From positions 62,789-126,788 of the forward strand of contig JAPOSC010000004.1 in assembly GCA_026709935.1 (NCBI GenBank): a stretch of 64,000 nucleotides of DNA. The letters are read 5' to 3'. This DNA comes from Thiotrichales bacterium (GTDB lineage: Bacteria; Pseudomonadota; Gammaproteobacteria; HK1). Each line of letters opens with the position of its first letter. Positions within the stretch are counted from its first letter, which is position 1. A program made the position numbers and the translations under genes. Shown one piece after another: positions 10,880 to 57,332 of the stretch. The notes under the pieces were generated by a model. It ran no database searches, had not been told where the DNA came from, and saw only the letters and a list, made by a program, of their open reading frames with translations.

Positions 10880-11430
10880 TGATACTTACCTCTGAACAGA
10901 AACGGAGAACGCTTGCAGGTCATCTCAGCGACGAACGGGGAAACCAGGAGGCACTCCGACGGGCGGGACAGCCTTTCAGCGGGCGGGCAGTATAGCCCCA
11001 ACTTCGGGCGGAGAGTCAATTATCGCGCCAACATTATCACCGGGGAGAACCGTGGCACTCGCGCCACTGTTGCAGAGAGGCAACGGCAGCCCGCGATCGG
11101 GGCATCTGACGCGCATTTCTCACTTGTTCTCGGCAAGGATCGGAAAACCACTCAAGCCTGGATGGCTCCGATTCGAGGACCAGAGAACCGTTCAAGCGTT
11201 GAGTGGCTCCGGTTCGAGGACCAACGAGAAATGCGACCGAATGCTCGTCTTCTTCACATACGCCCTGATGCGCATTTCTCACCAGTTCTCGGCGAGGACC
11301 AGAGAACCGTTCAAGCGTTGAGTGGTTCCGGTTCGAGGACCTGTGAGAAATGCGACCGAATGCTCGTCTTCTTCACATACGCCCTGATGCGCATTTCTCA
11401 CCAGTTCTCGGCAAGGAGCCGGAGAACCGC
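10880..11430. other. Intergenic region: csp leader and gene-end repeat array
   Basis: The first ~110 bases hold the csp leader and promoter. From about 11105 to 11445 the sequence is an array of the dispersed gene-end repeat downstream of ada. No protein-coding gene is proposed; small frames here are artefacts of the repeat. Confidence 0.7.
10989..11019 (-). promoter_or_regulatory. Candidate sigma70 promoter of the cold-shock gene
   Basis: On the minus strand TTGACT (11014-11019) is followed after 19 bases by TATACT (10989-10994). It lies in a region locally richer in A+T, about 110 bases from the cold-shock ATG. The 19-base spacer is slightly long. Confidence 0.5.
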
Positions 11431-11445
11431 TCACGCGCTGGATGA
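11105..11445 (-). repeat. Gene-end repeat array downstream of ada (about 119-bp units)
   Basis: Two nearly complete copies and partial copies of the window's dispersed repeat, in the orientation of ada. Perfect 12-bp arms GTGAGAAATGCG (11343-11354) and CGCATTTCTCAC (11390-11401) enclose a 35-nt loop; an equivalent pair lies at 11226-11235 and 11271-11282, and a lone right arm at 11112-11123. The right arms at 11271 and 11390 are 119 bp apart. A 41-bp sub-duplication separates the first copy. The last copy encodes the final codons and stop of ada. Confidence 0.85.
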
Positions 11446-18387: not shown

Positions 18388-18450
18388 TACACGGCCCAGA
18401 TTTCTCACGCACTCTCGGCCTGGACCGGAGAACCGCTCAGGCTTGGGTGG
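18388..18450 (-). repeat. Degenerate copy of the gene-end repeat
   Basis: Read on the minus strand, CAAGCCTGAGCGGTTCTCCG and a following GTGAGAAAT match the linker and left arm of the family near ctaA and ada, but the second arm is missing. Confidence 0.55.
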
Positions 18451-21645: not shown

Positions 21646-22849
21646 TTCGTGCGCTCCTTCAGATGGTTGCGAAATGACTCGGAGAGAGCTCACGGTCCTC
21701 ACGCTGGCCGCGCGATCGCCGTCAAGTCAGGCGAGACCCCGATCCGGGCTGGCGGTGAATGTGGTTCGCGCCGCCGGTTGGGTCCTGTCGTGCACACTTG
21801 CCTGTCTCCCGGCGTTGAAGCCGTTGAGTCGTTCAAGCCTTCTGTGCGCGTGTGTTGACGGGGTGTTTCCTGGCCATTCGAGAGTGCGAATCCACCCGGC
21901 TTTTCGAGGACTGATCCCGCCGGATCGGTCAGGTACTGTGGGTGTGATTGGGGGGTGGCGTGTCCCAGCGAGCACGGAGGCACCTGTTCAGGGCCATGCG
22001 CCGGAGACGAAATACCAGTTAAAACAGAGGATTGGAGTCCATCTAACGCAGATGCGAATGCTTCCTATTTGGTTCTAATTAAGCCATTATGTTTGTTACC
22101 CGCGTGTCCCCAGGTGTTACCCAGAGGGGGAAATGCGTCCCGCACCGGTCACCATTGATATCCCGGCAGGGGGCGAATTGAGGGGGTGAGAGGGAGGATT
22201 CCCGGATTTCGAGCGAGCGCCGCATCGGGGGGGCCGGTCGCGGCCTCACAGGCCCTCCGCGTCCTGCCCGAAGTTACGCCAAGTGGTTGTAAACGCAGGT
22301 AAAAAGACACACAACCCCGAAGAGAATCCGACGCCGAGTCCCCGAAAAGCCCACCGGCAGAAATGTCGCATGAAAGACATCAATGTCGTTCAAGGATATT
22401 TGACAACACACCCGAGGCAGTATGCTTCCTCCCGCTCGTGTGTGGGTTTCTCTTGGCCGCGCGTCGAGTTATATGCAGTCACACCCACTGTACCTGATTC
22501 CCACACCGTCCCTCGCTATTCTCCGTATTGCTCTTTTTCGAGCATCTACAGGCACTTACGCGCTGTTCCTCCGAAAACTCGGTCCACTCCCGGGGACACG
22601 GATGGGGACACGAGGCGACTCCTCGCAGCACTCGGCGCTTCCGCAGCACCGGCCAATCCATCGCACCGGGCCAAGGTCGCCACGGCCCTCCATGGAGCAC
22701 GGGTGGGGCGTGGTGGGCTGAGGCCATCGCCAATCCGCGCCGTGCGAATGCACGATCACGATGCCCGACGATGCAGGCGTCGGTGCCTTCAGTGGGCAGG
22801 GCAGGGAAAATTGAGTGGCGCAGTGAGAAATGCGGGCTGAACGTGCGGT
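21646..22849. other. 1.2-kb region without a recognised gene
   Basis: This is the longest stretch without a confident gene. The first part must hold the lipoprotein promoter. From about 22010 to 22560 the sequence is markedly richer in A+T than the chromosome average here, and several short frames have no coding character or recognisable family. A half-site of the gene-end repeat (GTGAGAAATGCG, 22823-22834) lies just beyond mutM. It may be a decayed island boundary. Confidence 0.4.
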
Positions 22850-38507: not shown

Positions 38508-38518
38508 CGCATCAACCC

Positions 38519-38600
38519 GAAAATTTCATCAATTCCCGGCAAGATTCGGAGAGCCGCTCAAACCTGGATGGCTCCGGTTCGAGGGCTTGGAGATGGTCGG
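38519..38600 (-). repeat. Partial gene-end repeat downstream of the amidase
   Basis: Read on the minus strand this matches the linker module of the family (CTCGAACCGGAGCCATCC, then TGAGCGGCTCTCCG and TTGCCGGGAATTG). The 12-bp hairpin module is missing. It sits 33 bases beyond the amidase stop in the amidase's orientation. Confidence 0.7.
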
Positions 38601-43485: not shown

Positions 43486-44067
43486 TCAGTGACAGATCCA
43501 CAGTCCCCGGTTCGGAATCACGAGGCGGGAGAATTCCGCGGACTTCAGCGCGCTCACCGCATCGCGGTCGCCGGCTTGCACCGAAACGACGATCCAGCCC
43601 GGCACCGCCGACTCGCGCTCGTAGCGCATGGTGGTCATCGGTTCGAGCTCCACTTTGAACGCTGCGATGGTCGCGGTGTCGTCGAGAAGAACGGCGTATT
43701 CGGCGCGTCCATCGATCACGTGACCGGCGGCTTCGAGCATCACGAGCTGGGACTGGGCGTAGAGCTCGAAGAATCTCACGCCGAGGACCGCAGCCCGGTC
43801 GAGAATGCCGGCCGACCATGCAAAGGCAACGACGAACAGGAGCCCGGCGAGATACAGGGTCCGGCGCGACCGCCCGGAGACACCCCAGTCACCGGCTCGC
43901 CGGCGTACCGACGAGCCGATCCGATCATCGGCTCGCCTACGCGGTGACGACCCGATCCGATCATCGGCTCGCCTGCGCGGTGACGACCCGATCCGATCAT
44001 CGGGTCGCCGACGCGACGGCGCCGACGGCGGCACGGGATTCGGATTGCGCGGCAACGATGCGGTCAT
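43486..44067 (-). CDS. Hypothetical membrane protein with N-terminal tandem repeats
   Basis: A 193-aa protein of unknown function. The cytoplasmic N-terminus carries two and a half copies of a 12-residue repeat (RRRADDRIGSSP), then a single transmembrane helix (TLYLAGLLFVVAFAWSAGI, about residues 70-88). The remaining ~100 residues are probably periplasmic, with VMLEAAGHVIDGRAEYAVLLDD and VVSVQAGDRDAVSALKSA. It ends 56 bases before the amidohydrolase start. The ribosome site is weak, and an upstream start is possible. Confidence 0.6.
   Translation of the reverse strand: MTASLPRNPNPVPPSAPSRRRPDDRIGSSPRRRADDRIGSSPRRRADDRIGSSVRRRAGDWGVSGRSRRTLYLAGLLFVVAFAWSAGILDRAAVLGVRFFELYAQSQLVMLEAAGHVIDGRAEYAVLLDDTATIAAFKVELEPMTTMRYERESAVPGWIVVSVQAGDRDAVSALKSAEFSRLVIPNRGLWICH
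43918..44010 (-). repeat. In-frame 36-bp tandem repeat
   Basis: GATCCGATCATCGG recurs at 43918, 43954 and 43990, an exact 36-bp period encoding the 12-residue repeat of the membrane protein. Two full units and a partial third are present. Confidence 0.85.
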
Positions 44068-54221: not shown

Positions 54222-55397
54222 ATGATCATGCACGGAACCACGACCTTGACGGACGCTCCATTGCGGACACCGCCGGCACACTCCAACGCGGTGGGGATCT
54301 GGCTGCTCGCATGCGCCGTGCTCGTCTACGCGATGGTCGTCGTGGGCGGCGTGACGCGGCTCACCGGATCCGGGCTCTCGATGGTCCGGTGGCATCCCGT
54401 ATCCGGGGTCCTGCCACCGGTGGGGGCAGAGGCGTGGCAGCACGAGTTCGACGCGTACCGAGCATCGCCCGAGTACCGGCTGGTCAATCGCGGGATGTCG
54501 CTGGCCGAGTTCAAGCGCATCTTCTGGATGGAGTACGCGCACCGTCTGCTGGGGCGCGGCATCGGCATCGCATTCCTGGCGCCATTTCTCGTCTTCCTGG
54601 CGATGCGCGCGATCCCGCGGGGAATGACTCCGCGTCTGGTCGGGGTATTCGTGCTCGGCAGCCTTCAGGGCGTGCTCGGCTGGTACATGGTGAGGAGCGG
54701 GCTCGTCGACGAACCCCGGGTGAGCCAGTACCGGCTCGCGGCCCACCTCTCGCTCGCGGTGGTGATCTACGTCTACCTCCTTGCGCTCGCGTTGCAGTTG
54801 CTCGGCCTCCGAGGCCCGACCGGGGTCGCCGCGACCCGTTCCGGCGCCATCCGGGGGCTGGCGCTCGCGGCGGGAGGGTCGGTGTTCGTCACCCTCGTGA
54901 TGGGCGCCTTCGTCGCCGGGCTGGAGGCCGGATACCTCCACCCCACGTTCCCGACGATGAGCGGGTACTGGATACCGCCCGGGATGTTCGAAGCCGCCCC
55001 GTGGTGGCGGAACTTCTTCGAGAATCCGGTCACGGCCCAGTTCACCCACCGGGTGCTGGCGTTCGTGAGCGGCGCCGCCGTCTTCGCGGCCTGGGTCGCG
55101 AGCCTCGGGGCCCACGTGCCGCGCCGCGCCCGCCTCTGGGCTCACGCCAGCCTCGCCGCGGTCGTCGTCCAGATCGGGCTCGGAATCTCCACCCTGCTGT
55201 TCCATGTCCCGATCCCGCTGGCCGCGGGCCATCAGGCGGGAGCGATCGCGTTGCTGACGTGCCTGACAGGGTTGTATCTCGCCACCCGGACCCCGAGACT
55301 TGCCCCCGCGTTGTCCACCGGGCGCGCGTATGCCTGGTTTTCTCAGGGCACGCGAAGGCGTGGAGATAGTGAGAAATGCGCATCAAGACGTATGTGA
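54222..55397 (+). CDS. ctaA: Heme A synthase (CtaA/COX15)
   Basis: A 391-aa inner-membrane protein that oxidises heme O to heme A for cytochrome oxidase. ATG 54222 (or 54228) is chosen. About eight transmembrane segments and the heme-ligand histidines are seen in MEYAHRLLGRG, LAAHLSLAVVIY, QFTHRVLAFVSG and AAGHQAGAIALL. VGGVTRLTGSGLSMVRWHPVSGVLPP is typical of the COX15-like type. The last ~16 residues (GTRRRGDSEKCASRRM) and the stop codon are encoded inside a gene-end repeat and are not family-conserved. Confidence 0.92.
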   Translation: MIMHGTTTLTDAPLRTPPAHSNAVGIWLLACAVLVYAMVVVGGVTRLTGSGLSMVRWHPVSGVLPPVGAEAWQHEFDAYRASPEYRLVNRGMSLAEFKRIFWMEYAHRLLGRGIGIAFLAPFLVFLAMRAIPRGMTPRLVGVFVLGSLQGVLGWYMVRSGLVDEPRVSQYRLAAHLSLAVVIYVYLLALALQLLGLRGPTGVAATRSGAIRGLALAAGGSVFVTLVMGAFVAGLEAGYLHPTFPTMSGYWIPPGMFEAAPWWRNFFENPVTAQFTHRVLAFVSGAAVFAAWVASLGAHVPRRARLWAHASLAAVVVQIGLGISTLLFHVPIPLAAGHQAGAIALLTCLTGLYLATRTPRLAPALSTGRAYAWFSQGTRRRGDSEKCASRRM

Positions 55398-55500
55398 AGA
55401 AGACGAGCATTCAGCCGCATTTCTCACAAGTCGCTCGAACCGGAGCCATCCAAGCCTGAGCGGTTATTCGGTGCTTGCTTGGAACTGGCGAGAGATCCGG
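55369..55500 (+). repeat. Gene-end repeat downstream of ctaA
   Basis: Perfect 12-bp arms GTGAGAAATGCG (55369-55380) and CGCATTTCTCAC (55416-55427) enclose a 35-base loop containing the ctaA stop. The linker CTCGAACCGGAGCCATCC follows (from 55434). Same orientation as ctaA and sixA. Confidence 0.85.
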
Positions 55501-55540
55501 GTGAGTTGTGCGTCTGAACATTGAGGGGAACCGATCACCG

Positions 55541-56056
55541 ATGAAGCGCCGCGAACTGCTCATTCTCCGCCACGCCAAATCCGCGTGGGATACCGGTGCG
55601 CCCTCCGACTTCGATCGACCGCTTGCGGTGCGCGGGCTCAAGGCGACGCAGCGGATCGGTCGCTATATCGCAGAGACGGGACTGATACCCGATGCGATCG
55701 TCTGCTCCACCGCGACCCGCGCGGTCCAGACGGTGCTCGGAGCGGCGCAGTCCGGCGGCTTCACGCTCCGGCCCGTGCGTTTCGAAAACGCGATCTACGA
55801 GGCGAGCCTCAAGACCCTTCTCGGGGTACTGGGCAACTGCAACCCGCAAGCGCACCGCACGATGATCGTCGGACACAATCCGGGACTCGAGTATCTGATC
55901 GACCACCTCGCGGGCGGCGTTCCGGTGCCCGGGGACGGAAAGCTGATGCCCACCGCCGCGCTCGCGCGCGTCGACCTTCCCACGAACTGGCACGGGCTCG
56001 AACGCGGCCAGGGCAAGCTCCTCGGACTCACCCGGGTGCGCGACCTCGACGACTGA
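55541..56056 (+). CDS. SixA-like histidine phosphatase
   Basis: A 171-aa protein of the histidine phosphatase (phosphoglycerate-mutase-like) superfamily, SixA group, which in E. coli dephosphorylates histidine-phosphotransfer proteins. Start ATG 55541, with GAGGGGAA upstream. Catalytic His is in LILRHAKSAWD; CSTATRAVQT and IVGHNPGLEYLI supply the second Arg and His. Its stop codon abuts a tandem array of gene-end repeats. Confidence 0.88.
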   Translation: MKRRELLILRHAKSAWDTGAPSDFDRPLAVRGLKATQRIGRYIAETGLIPDAIVCSTATRAVQTVLGAAQSGGFTLRPVRFENAIYEASLKTLLGVLGNCNPQAHRTMIVGHNPGLEYLIDHLAGGVPVPGDGKLMPTAALARVDLPTNWHGLERGQGKLLGLTRVRDLDD

Positions 56057-56430
56057 GCGGACCTTCGATCCCTGCGGGGAACTAGTGGGAAATGCGCGTC
56101 AAGGCGTATGGGAGGGAGACGCGCATTGGGCCGCATTTCCCACCGGCCCTCGAACCGGAGCCGTCCAGACCTGAGCGGACCTTCGATCCTTGCCGGGAAC
56201 TGGTGGGAAATGCGCGTCAAGGCGTATGGGAGGGAGACGCGCATTGGGCCGCATTTCCCACCGGCCCTCGAACCGGAGCCGTCCAGACCTGAGCGGACCT
56301 TCGATCCTTGCCGGGAACTGGTGGGAAATGCGCGTCAAGGCGTATGGGAGGGAGACGCGCATTGGGCCGCATTTCCCACCGGCCCTCGAACCGGAGCCGT
56401 CCCTCGATTCTTGCGGAGAACTGGTGGGAA
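56053..56430 (+). repeat. Tandem array of 118-bp gene-end repeats downstream of sixA-like gene
   Basis: Units start at 56053, 56171 and 56289 (exact 118-bp period), followed by a partial unit. Each contains GTGGGAAATGCG and CGCATTTCCCAC arms (first pair 56085-56096 and 56132-56143). Relative to the ctaA and ada copies, the fourth base of the left arm and its partner both changed (A-T to G-C). The array begins at the sixA stop codon. Confidence 0.9.
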
Positions 56431-56510
56431 ATCCGGGGCCAGGGTCGGCTGCCGCGGCGGGTACCGCGTCTGCTACATTGCGCGCGCCTTGCGTCATGGA
56501 GAGAAGAAAG

Positions 56511-57332
56511 ATGTATGCGGTGCCGACCGCTGAGGCGGGTGGCGGCGAGTGCCTGCTGGGGGCCGGAGATCCCGATCCGGTCGAAGTGGTGCGGCCGTCC
56601 GGCGCCTCGCCCTTCTTCCTGACCTGCGAGCACGCGGGGCGGGAGTTCCCCGCCCGTCTGGGCACACTCGGCCTGACCGGACCCGATCTCGACCGGCACA
56701 TCGCGTGGGACATCGGGGCGGCGGCGGTCGCGCGCGGGCTTTCCGAGCGGCTCGACGCGACCCTGGTGCTGCAGCGGTACTCCCGGCTGGTGGTGGACTG
56801 CAACCGGGTCCCGGATGCGGACGACTTCGTGACCGAGTTGAGCGAAGACACCCTCATTCCCGGCAACCGCGGCCTGAGCGACGCCGAGATCGACACGCGA
56901 GCGGCCGAGATCTTCCATCCCTATCACGACCGCATCCACGATCTGCTCGAAGCGCGGGTCGCGGCGGACCGGCTCACCGTCGTCGTCTCGGTGCATACGT
57001 GCACGCCGGTGTATCACGGCGTGCATCGGCCCTGGCATATCGGCGTGATGTACGAGCACGACGACCGGCTCGCCCGCGCGATGCTGGCCGTACTACGCGA
57101 GGAAGGCGAGGAGGCGGGGCTCGTGGTGGGCGACAACGAGCCCTACTTCATGACCTCGGACACGGATTACTCGATGCCGCGGCATGGACAGGGCCGGGGA
57201 GTCCCCCACGTCGGATTCGAGATCCGCCAGGATCTCGTCGAGAGCGCGCCCGGACAACACGAATGGGCCGAGCGGATGGAGCGGGTGCTGCGCGAATCGC
57301 TGGGACGTTTGAAGCGGGCGGGCGAGGTTTGA
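56511..57332 (+). CDS. N-formylglutamate amidohydrolase family protein
   Basis: A 273-aa zinc-dependent hydrolase of the FGase family. ATG 56511 has GGAG 9 nt upstream; ATG 56496 is an alternative. FFLTCEHAGREFP, HIAWDIGAAAVARGLSERLDATLVLQRYSRLVVDCNR and VSVHTCTPVYHG carry the conserved Glu, His and Asp positions. Classical members release glutamate in the histidine-utilisation pathway; no hut genes are present, so another N-acyl amino acid is possible. Confidence 0.88.
   Translation: MYAVPTAEAGGGECLLGAGDPDPVEVVRPSGASPFFLTCEHAGREFPARLGTLGLTGPDLDRHIAWDIGAAAVARGLSERLDATLVLQRYSRLVVDCNRVPDADDFVTELSEDTLIPGNRGLSDAEIDTRAAEIFHPYHDRIHDLLEARVAADRLTVVVSVHTCTPVYHGVHRPWHIGVMYEHDDRLARAMLAVLREEGEEAGLVVGDNEPYFMTSDTDYSMPRHGQGRGVPHVGFEIRQDLVESAPGQHEWAERMERVLRESLGRLKRAGEV

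Follow-up and report, generated by a model that had tools for sequence, protein, structure and literature searches.

In the 64-kb window (the whole stretch of DNA analysed), copies of one repeat family are found at the ends of ctaA, sixA and ada and beside several other genes. The element at the ctaA end (55369–55501, plus strand) consists of a left TIR core (55369–55380), a hairpin (55369–55427), a linker and a degenerate right TIR (GGCGAGAGATCCGGG, 55487–55501), and its hairpin arms, GTGAGAAATGCG and CGCATTTCTCAC, occupy positions 55369–55380 and 55416–55427. This copy does not lie beyond the gene, as an earlier note on this DNA had stated: the ctaA reading frame (54291–55397) overlaps the element, with its last codons and stop inside it. 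The predicted C-terminal residues and the stop codon of ctaA (55365–55397) are supplied by the inserted element. The element after sixA (56053–56437, plus strand) is composed of a truncated left linker, three tandem 118-bp units and a right TIR (GGTGGGAAATCCGGG, 56423–56437) followed by GCCAGG. The three hairpins (56085–56143, 56203–56261 and 56321–56379, all on the plus strand) are identical, with arms GTGGGAAATGCG and CGCATTTCCCAC. After ada, an element on the minus strand (11107–11432) contains hairpin units at 11343–11401 and 11224–11282 and a terminal half-site at 11112–11123; the arms are again GTGAGAAATGCG and CGCATTTCTCAC, one of them being degenerate in the hairpin at 11224–11282. The arm sequences read earlier at ctaA and ada, as well as the three tandem copies after sixA, were thus all confirmed.

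The copy reported downstream of the amidase gene (38516–38590, minus strand) does carry sequence of the family, but has no hairpin, being a right element half made up of the linker and the TIR GATGAAATTTTCGGG only. A right-half fragment at 18395–18450 (minus strand), located upstream of a lysine-decarboxylase-family gene, likewise contains the linker and a degenerate TIR (CGTGAGAAATCTGGG) without a hairpin. Therefore, closeness to gene ends is independent of the hairpin. In addition, a solitary TIR (AGTGAGAAATGCGGG, 22822–22836, plus strand), followed by CTGA, is found 3' of a formamidopyrimidine-DNA glycosylase gene encoded on the opposite strand. Tandem Repeats Finder also reported a 36-bp tandem repeat at 43889–44015 (3.5 copies, 86% matches), which is apparently unrelated to the hairpin family. 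No match to Rfam was obtained within the window.

With up to one mismatch allowed, the half-site GTGRGAAATGCG occurs 15 times in the window versus 0.8 expected from shuffles. A genome-wide search with this half-site revealed 105 exact matches in the 3.78-Mb gammaproteobacterial draft genome (none for the reversed control), and one 118-bp unit used as a query gave 63 matches. Based on blast matches covering more than 60 bp of the unit, the genome contains about 58 hairpin units at about 43 intergenic loci, with one to three tandem units per locus; several arrays are found at contig ends, array lengths being minimum values, and at abutting contigs a few copies may have entered the count twice (L078 and L109 have the same starting sequence). 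Contigs C24 (L078:1–60) and C66 (L109:1–51) both start inside the same repeat copy, which suggests that they are neighbours and that the repeats break the assembly. In the stretches analysed (about 3 kb on each side of the sites), all of the approximately 43 loci are intergenic or at gene ends, span 42–444 bp between TIRs and have no transposase gene inside. A pattern scan of the named genomes, among which the window's own genome was possibly not included, for the hairpin end together with the linker start found nothing.

The order within a unit is GTGAGAAATGCG, 35 bp, CGCATTTCTCAC and a linker of about 59 bp ending in CCTTGCCGAGAACTG, after which the next GTGAGAAATGCG begins. Each module of about 118 bp therefore starts with an internal TIR core, and because a second, inverted core follows 35 bp further on, a 59-bp hairpin results. 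A full element is bounded at both ends by TIRs of about 15 bp, and inspection of the flanks of all arrays revealed that the outer ends of many of them are inverted repeats, the left one usually being CCCGGAAATTTCACC and the right one either GGTGAAATTTCCGGG or the variant GGTGAGAAATGCGGG. The right outer ends are followed by CTAG, TTAG, TCAG, CTGA and similar tetramers. In many arrays, among them the window arrays at ctaA and sixA, the outer TIRs are degenerate or absent. At L115 (3066–3279) a hairpin unit is enclosed between such ends with CTGA on both flanks, and elements with the same ends elsewhere in the stretches analysed are flanked on both sides by CTAG at L074 (1433–1645) and by CTGA at L076 (2005–2135). 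For 24 TIR-bounded elements of this genome, identified with up to two edits per end, the flanking tetramers agreed at 2.54 of four positions versus 1.84 after permutation (p = 0.0003, somewhat optimistic owing to a few nested pairings that share a locus), and a stricter test with no indels in the ends gave p = 0.16 for 13 elements. At least three of the four YTAR positions were matched in 40 of the 48 flanks, versus 8% of window tetramers, and this target bias is far stronger than the uncertainty from the nested pairings. A signal of the YTAR target duplication of an IS1380-type MITE is thus seen genome-wide, weaker in the stricter test, while the window copies are too degenerate to display it.

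Comparison of one gene neighbourhood in three genomes of the same genus (G002, G003 and G004) showed that the gap between ctaA and sixA is free of the element in all of them, and in G003 the interval separating sixA from the N-formylglutamate amidohydrolase gene is likewise free of it. The outer TIR variant GGTGAAATTTCCGGG, with 34 copies here, is absent from 16 relatives in the same taxonomic family. In three genus relatives the half-site is present in only 6–17 copies, most of them solitary or within small MITEs, and it is absent from G001. Some of the solitary sites are old, since G002 and G004 share their position.

A search across the class detected GGTGRGAAATGCGGGYTA in 23 of 274 genomes from many families, with up to 114 copies per genome (reversed control, 0) and often as inverted pairs about 150–165 bp apart. 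The subset examined in detail yielded plain MITEs of 126–311 bp, several of which have identical YTAR-like flanks, for example CTAG/CTAG (L206), TTAA/TTAA (L205), ATAG/ATAG (L196) and TTAG/TTAG (L176). Two class relatives, G220 and G284 (L174, L185, L193–L196), contain up to 114 IS1380-type TIR copies per genome, including nearly identical 176-bp MITEs, and related MITEs of 176–178 bp, about 73–77% identical, were observed in G146 and G287 of other families. In G284 (L189; JALUUZ010000046.1), an inverted end pair surrounds a 486-codon open frame that encodes an IS1380-family transposase (PF13701, 1.5e-156; NF033539, 1.8e-121). This autonomous element has identical 15-bp ends and reads CTAG|CCCGCATTTCTCACC...GGTGAGAAATGCGGG|CTAG. 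The named genomes were then searched with the G284 transposase as a query, end pairs being defined by inverted ends and flank duplications without use of the TIR sequence. Ends of the CCCG[C/G]ATTTCTCACC type, with at least three of four matching, YTAR-like flank bases, were found at about 32 of the 52 loci around transposase relatives, in taxa ranging from Gammaproteobacteria to Nitrospirales, Scalindua and Singulisphaera, that is, in many phyla. The solitary and right ends GGTGAGAAATGCGGG of the present family are identical to the ends of the G284 element, and the outer variant CCCGGAAATTTCACC is similar to other IS1380 ends. Based on the G284 element and the ends at the transposase relatives, the 12-bp hairpin arm thus corresponds to the core of a TIR of the IS1380 type.

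An IS1380 transposase was not found in this genome, a draft of 95.9% completeness from which multi-copy elements may be missing. The IS1380 copies of G002 and G004 were considered as mobilisers and rejected, as their ends are unrelated to those of the hairpin family. In G005, which belongs to the same family, IS1380 copies have CCCGGATATTGCACG ends and CTAG, CTAA or CTAC flanks. The mobiliser is thus a putative one.

The earlier note had suggested a lineage-specific terminator or mRNA-protection element with selected pairing. Such an RNA element at the 3' ends of genes, whether a terminator or an mRNA-protecting or processing hairpin kept by base-pairing selection, now appears highly improbable. 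The predicted stems are stable (z about −2.5 to −4.4), and the arms are more conserved (0.97–0.98) than the loop (0.86), but copies of a TIR would be expected to show the same conservation in their arms. The paired A-U to G-C change, taken as evidence of selected pairing, does exist; however, among 53 aligned hairpins (49 distinct) only one of the 12 pairs is changed on both sides, in two distinct sequences (the sixA array with its three identical hairpins, and L115), and as many double-changed pairs were reached by 132 of 500 shuffles. The covariation score (0.075) was matched by only 3 of 500 shuffles, and the covariation term of RNAalifold was only −0.34 kcal/mol. Overall, the evidence for selected pairing is weak. 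In relatives, the G variant further occurs as a natural allele of solitary ends (L117, L125, L136, L147). The 38 elements assigned to gaps (genes were predicted with a simple codon-usage caller, some being checked against Pfam) are distributed over 19 same-strand, 9 convergent and 10 divergent gaps, versus 24.4, 4.4 and 9.2 expected by gap length. The convergent gaps are somewhat over-represented, as a 3'-end element would have it, but the divergent gaps are not depleted, and the elements in same-strand gaps show no significant orientation bias (13 co-directional, 6 opposite; p = 0.17). Thus, the enrichment and strand bias at 3' ends that were to be looked for did not emerge, and the statement that all scoreable copies lie beyond gene 3' ends in the orientation of the gene does not extend to the genome. 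A terminator is further contradicted by the frequent placement in divergent gaps and by the stems themselves, after which neither a T-tract nor a terminator was found (55300–56600), and the amidase copy, as mentioned above, lacks the hairpin.

The family shares with REP/REPIN elements, which are mobilised by a RAYT tyrosine transposase, the inverted doublets forming hairpins, the tandem clusters, the intergenic position and the high copy number, in the manner of REPIN clusters (PMC3116915). It is nevertheless extremely unlikely to be of this kind, given that TIRs and 4-bp target duplications fit DDE-type IS1380 elements instead and that the sole Y1 transposase found in the genome is encoded by a disrupted IS200-like gene whose surroundings lack the motif; the RAYT link was rejected on the latter grounds. 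That gene (L139:2900–3400; G000:C5:18335–18694) is IS200/IS605-like, has in-frame stops and is the only Y1_Tnp match in the genome. A REP-type preference for positions downstream of genes was not observed among the 38 elements either, those in divergent gaps being about as many as length predicts. The REP-like label of the earlier note therefore holds for a dispersed, lineage-restricted, palindromic and intergenic family, but not in the strict, RAYT-linked sense. Another possibility, compatible with a MITE origin as a later addition, is that some copies were locally co-opted as promoter or operator parts, such as solitary TIRs just upstream of tRNA genes. In L124 (1501–1611) and L151 of G004 and G002, and in L071 (2988–3093) of this genome, a TIR-type motif followed by a −10-like TATAAT or TAGACT is located about 20 bp upstream of tRNA-Arg or tRNA-Val. 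More precisely, GGTGAGAAATGCGGGCTATAAT, which has the same position in G002 and G004, precedes tRNA-Arg by 22 bp, and GTGAGAAATGCGGTCTAGACT precedes tRNA-Val by 19 bp in this genome. The comparable MITE BrickBuilt has promoter activity (PMC4596501). On the other hand, the cases are few, the window copies showed no sigma-70-like promoter, and the AT-rich YTAR target resembles a −10 box, so that the pattern can come from target choice; such co-option is considered rather unlikely. As a general explanation, a promoter motif was set aside once inverted pairs had been found across the class and the IS1380 element had been identified.

Taken together, the family very probably represents IS1380-type MITEs in which a TIR-bounded 118-bp module has been amplified in tandem. 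Judging from the sequences, the features that define an IS1380-type MITE are present within the limits given above. The family is of a known kind and apparently undescribed in the literature searched: no paper on bacteria was retrieved by a text search with the TIR sequence, and the publications on IS1380 and MITEs, for the most part in their titles and abstracts, contained no description of it. It is likely that an IS1380-type transposase acting in trans moved and spread the elements, inserting them into a YTAR-like 4-bp target that would be duplicated, and that this mobiliser was either lost or is missing from the assembly. The modules may have multiplied through slippage at, or unequal recombination between, the direct repeats GAACTGGTGAGAAATGCG; such tandem growth is suggested by the higher similarity of units within arrays than between them (0.94 vs. 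0.85) and by the direct repeats bounding the units. The likeness of the arms may be kept as both are copies of one protein-binding site, and since both would copy one transposase-bound end sequence, their identity would be expected even if RNA pairing were not under selection. A dedicated host function of the elements is most likely absent, and their intergenic position may reflect where insertions are tolerated. Co-option for a role at the RNA level is conceivable but unsupported, and a terminator or mRNA-protection role is not needed to explain the hairpins. More speculatively, and with a rather low likelihood, this could be a MITE with an amplification module of its own, in which internal TIR copies form a tandem-multiplying 118-bp hairpin unit and so produce multivalent arrays of putative transposase-binding sites that outlast the transposase, some being later co-opted as promoter or 3'-end elements.

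A supposed new RNA element thereby becomes a recognisable transposon-derived repeat, and the case illustrates that transposon ends in inverted orientation can look like an RNA stem under selection, apparent covariation included, which is a trap for reading from sequence only. It also adds a new IS1380-type MITE family, with related MITEs in many gammaproteobacterial families and named autonomous partners.

The repeats share with IS1380-family insertion sequences, as represented by the G284 element, the TIR core CCCGCATTTCTCACC and the 4-bp YTAR target duplication, but they have no transposase and measure about 0.05–0.45 kb versus 1.7 kb. According to the definition of bacterial MITEs (PMC4133298), these are short, multicopy, TIR-bounded, intergenic and noncoding, with ends like those of an intact IS, and the present family resembles them in all of these respects, whereas its internal tandem modules, which derive from TIR copies, are unusual for a MITE. 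The MITE BrickBuilt of Porphyromonas gingivalis (PMC4596501) likewise contains a tandem repeat, is always intergenic and varies in its number of units; however, its units are 23 bp long, without a spacer and of unrelated sequence, while those described here are about 118 bp long and each contain an inverted TIR pair. Similar to REPINs (PMC3116915) and GTAG/CGTC-tagged REPs (PMC3733652), the repeats are extragenic inverted hairpin doublets, some in tandem clusters, that would be moved in trans. Those elements are associated with RAYTs, whereas the family described here is associated with DDE-type TIRs and target duplications, and not with a RAYT.
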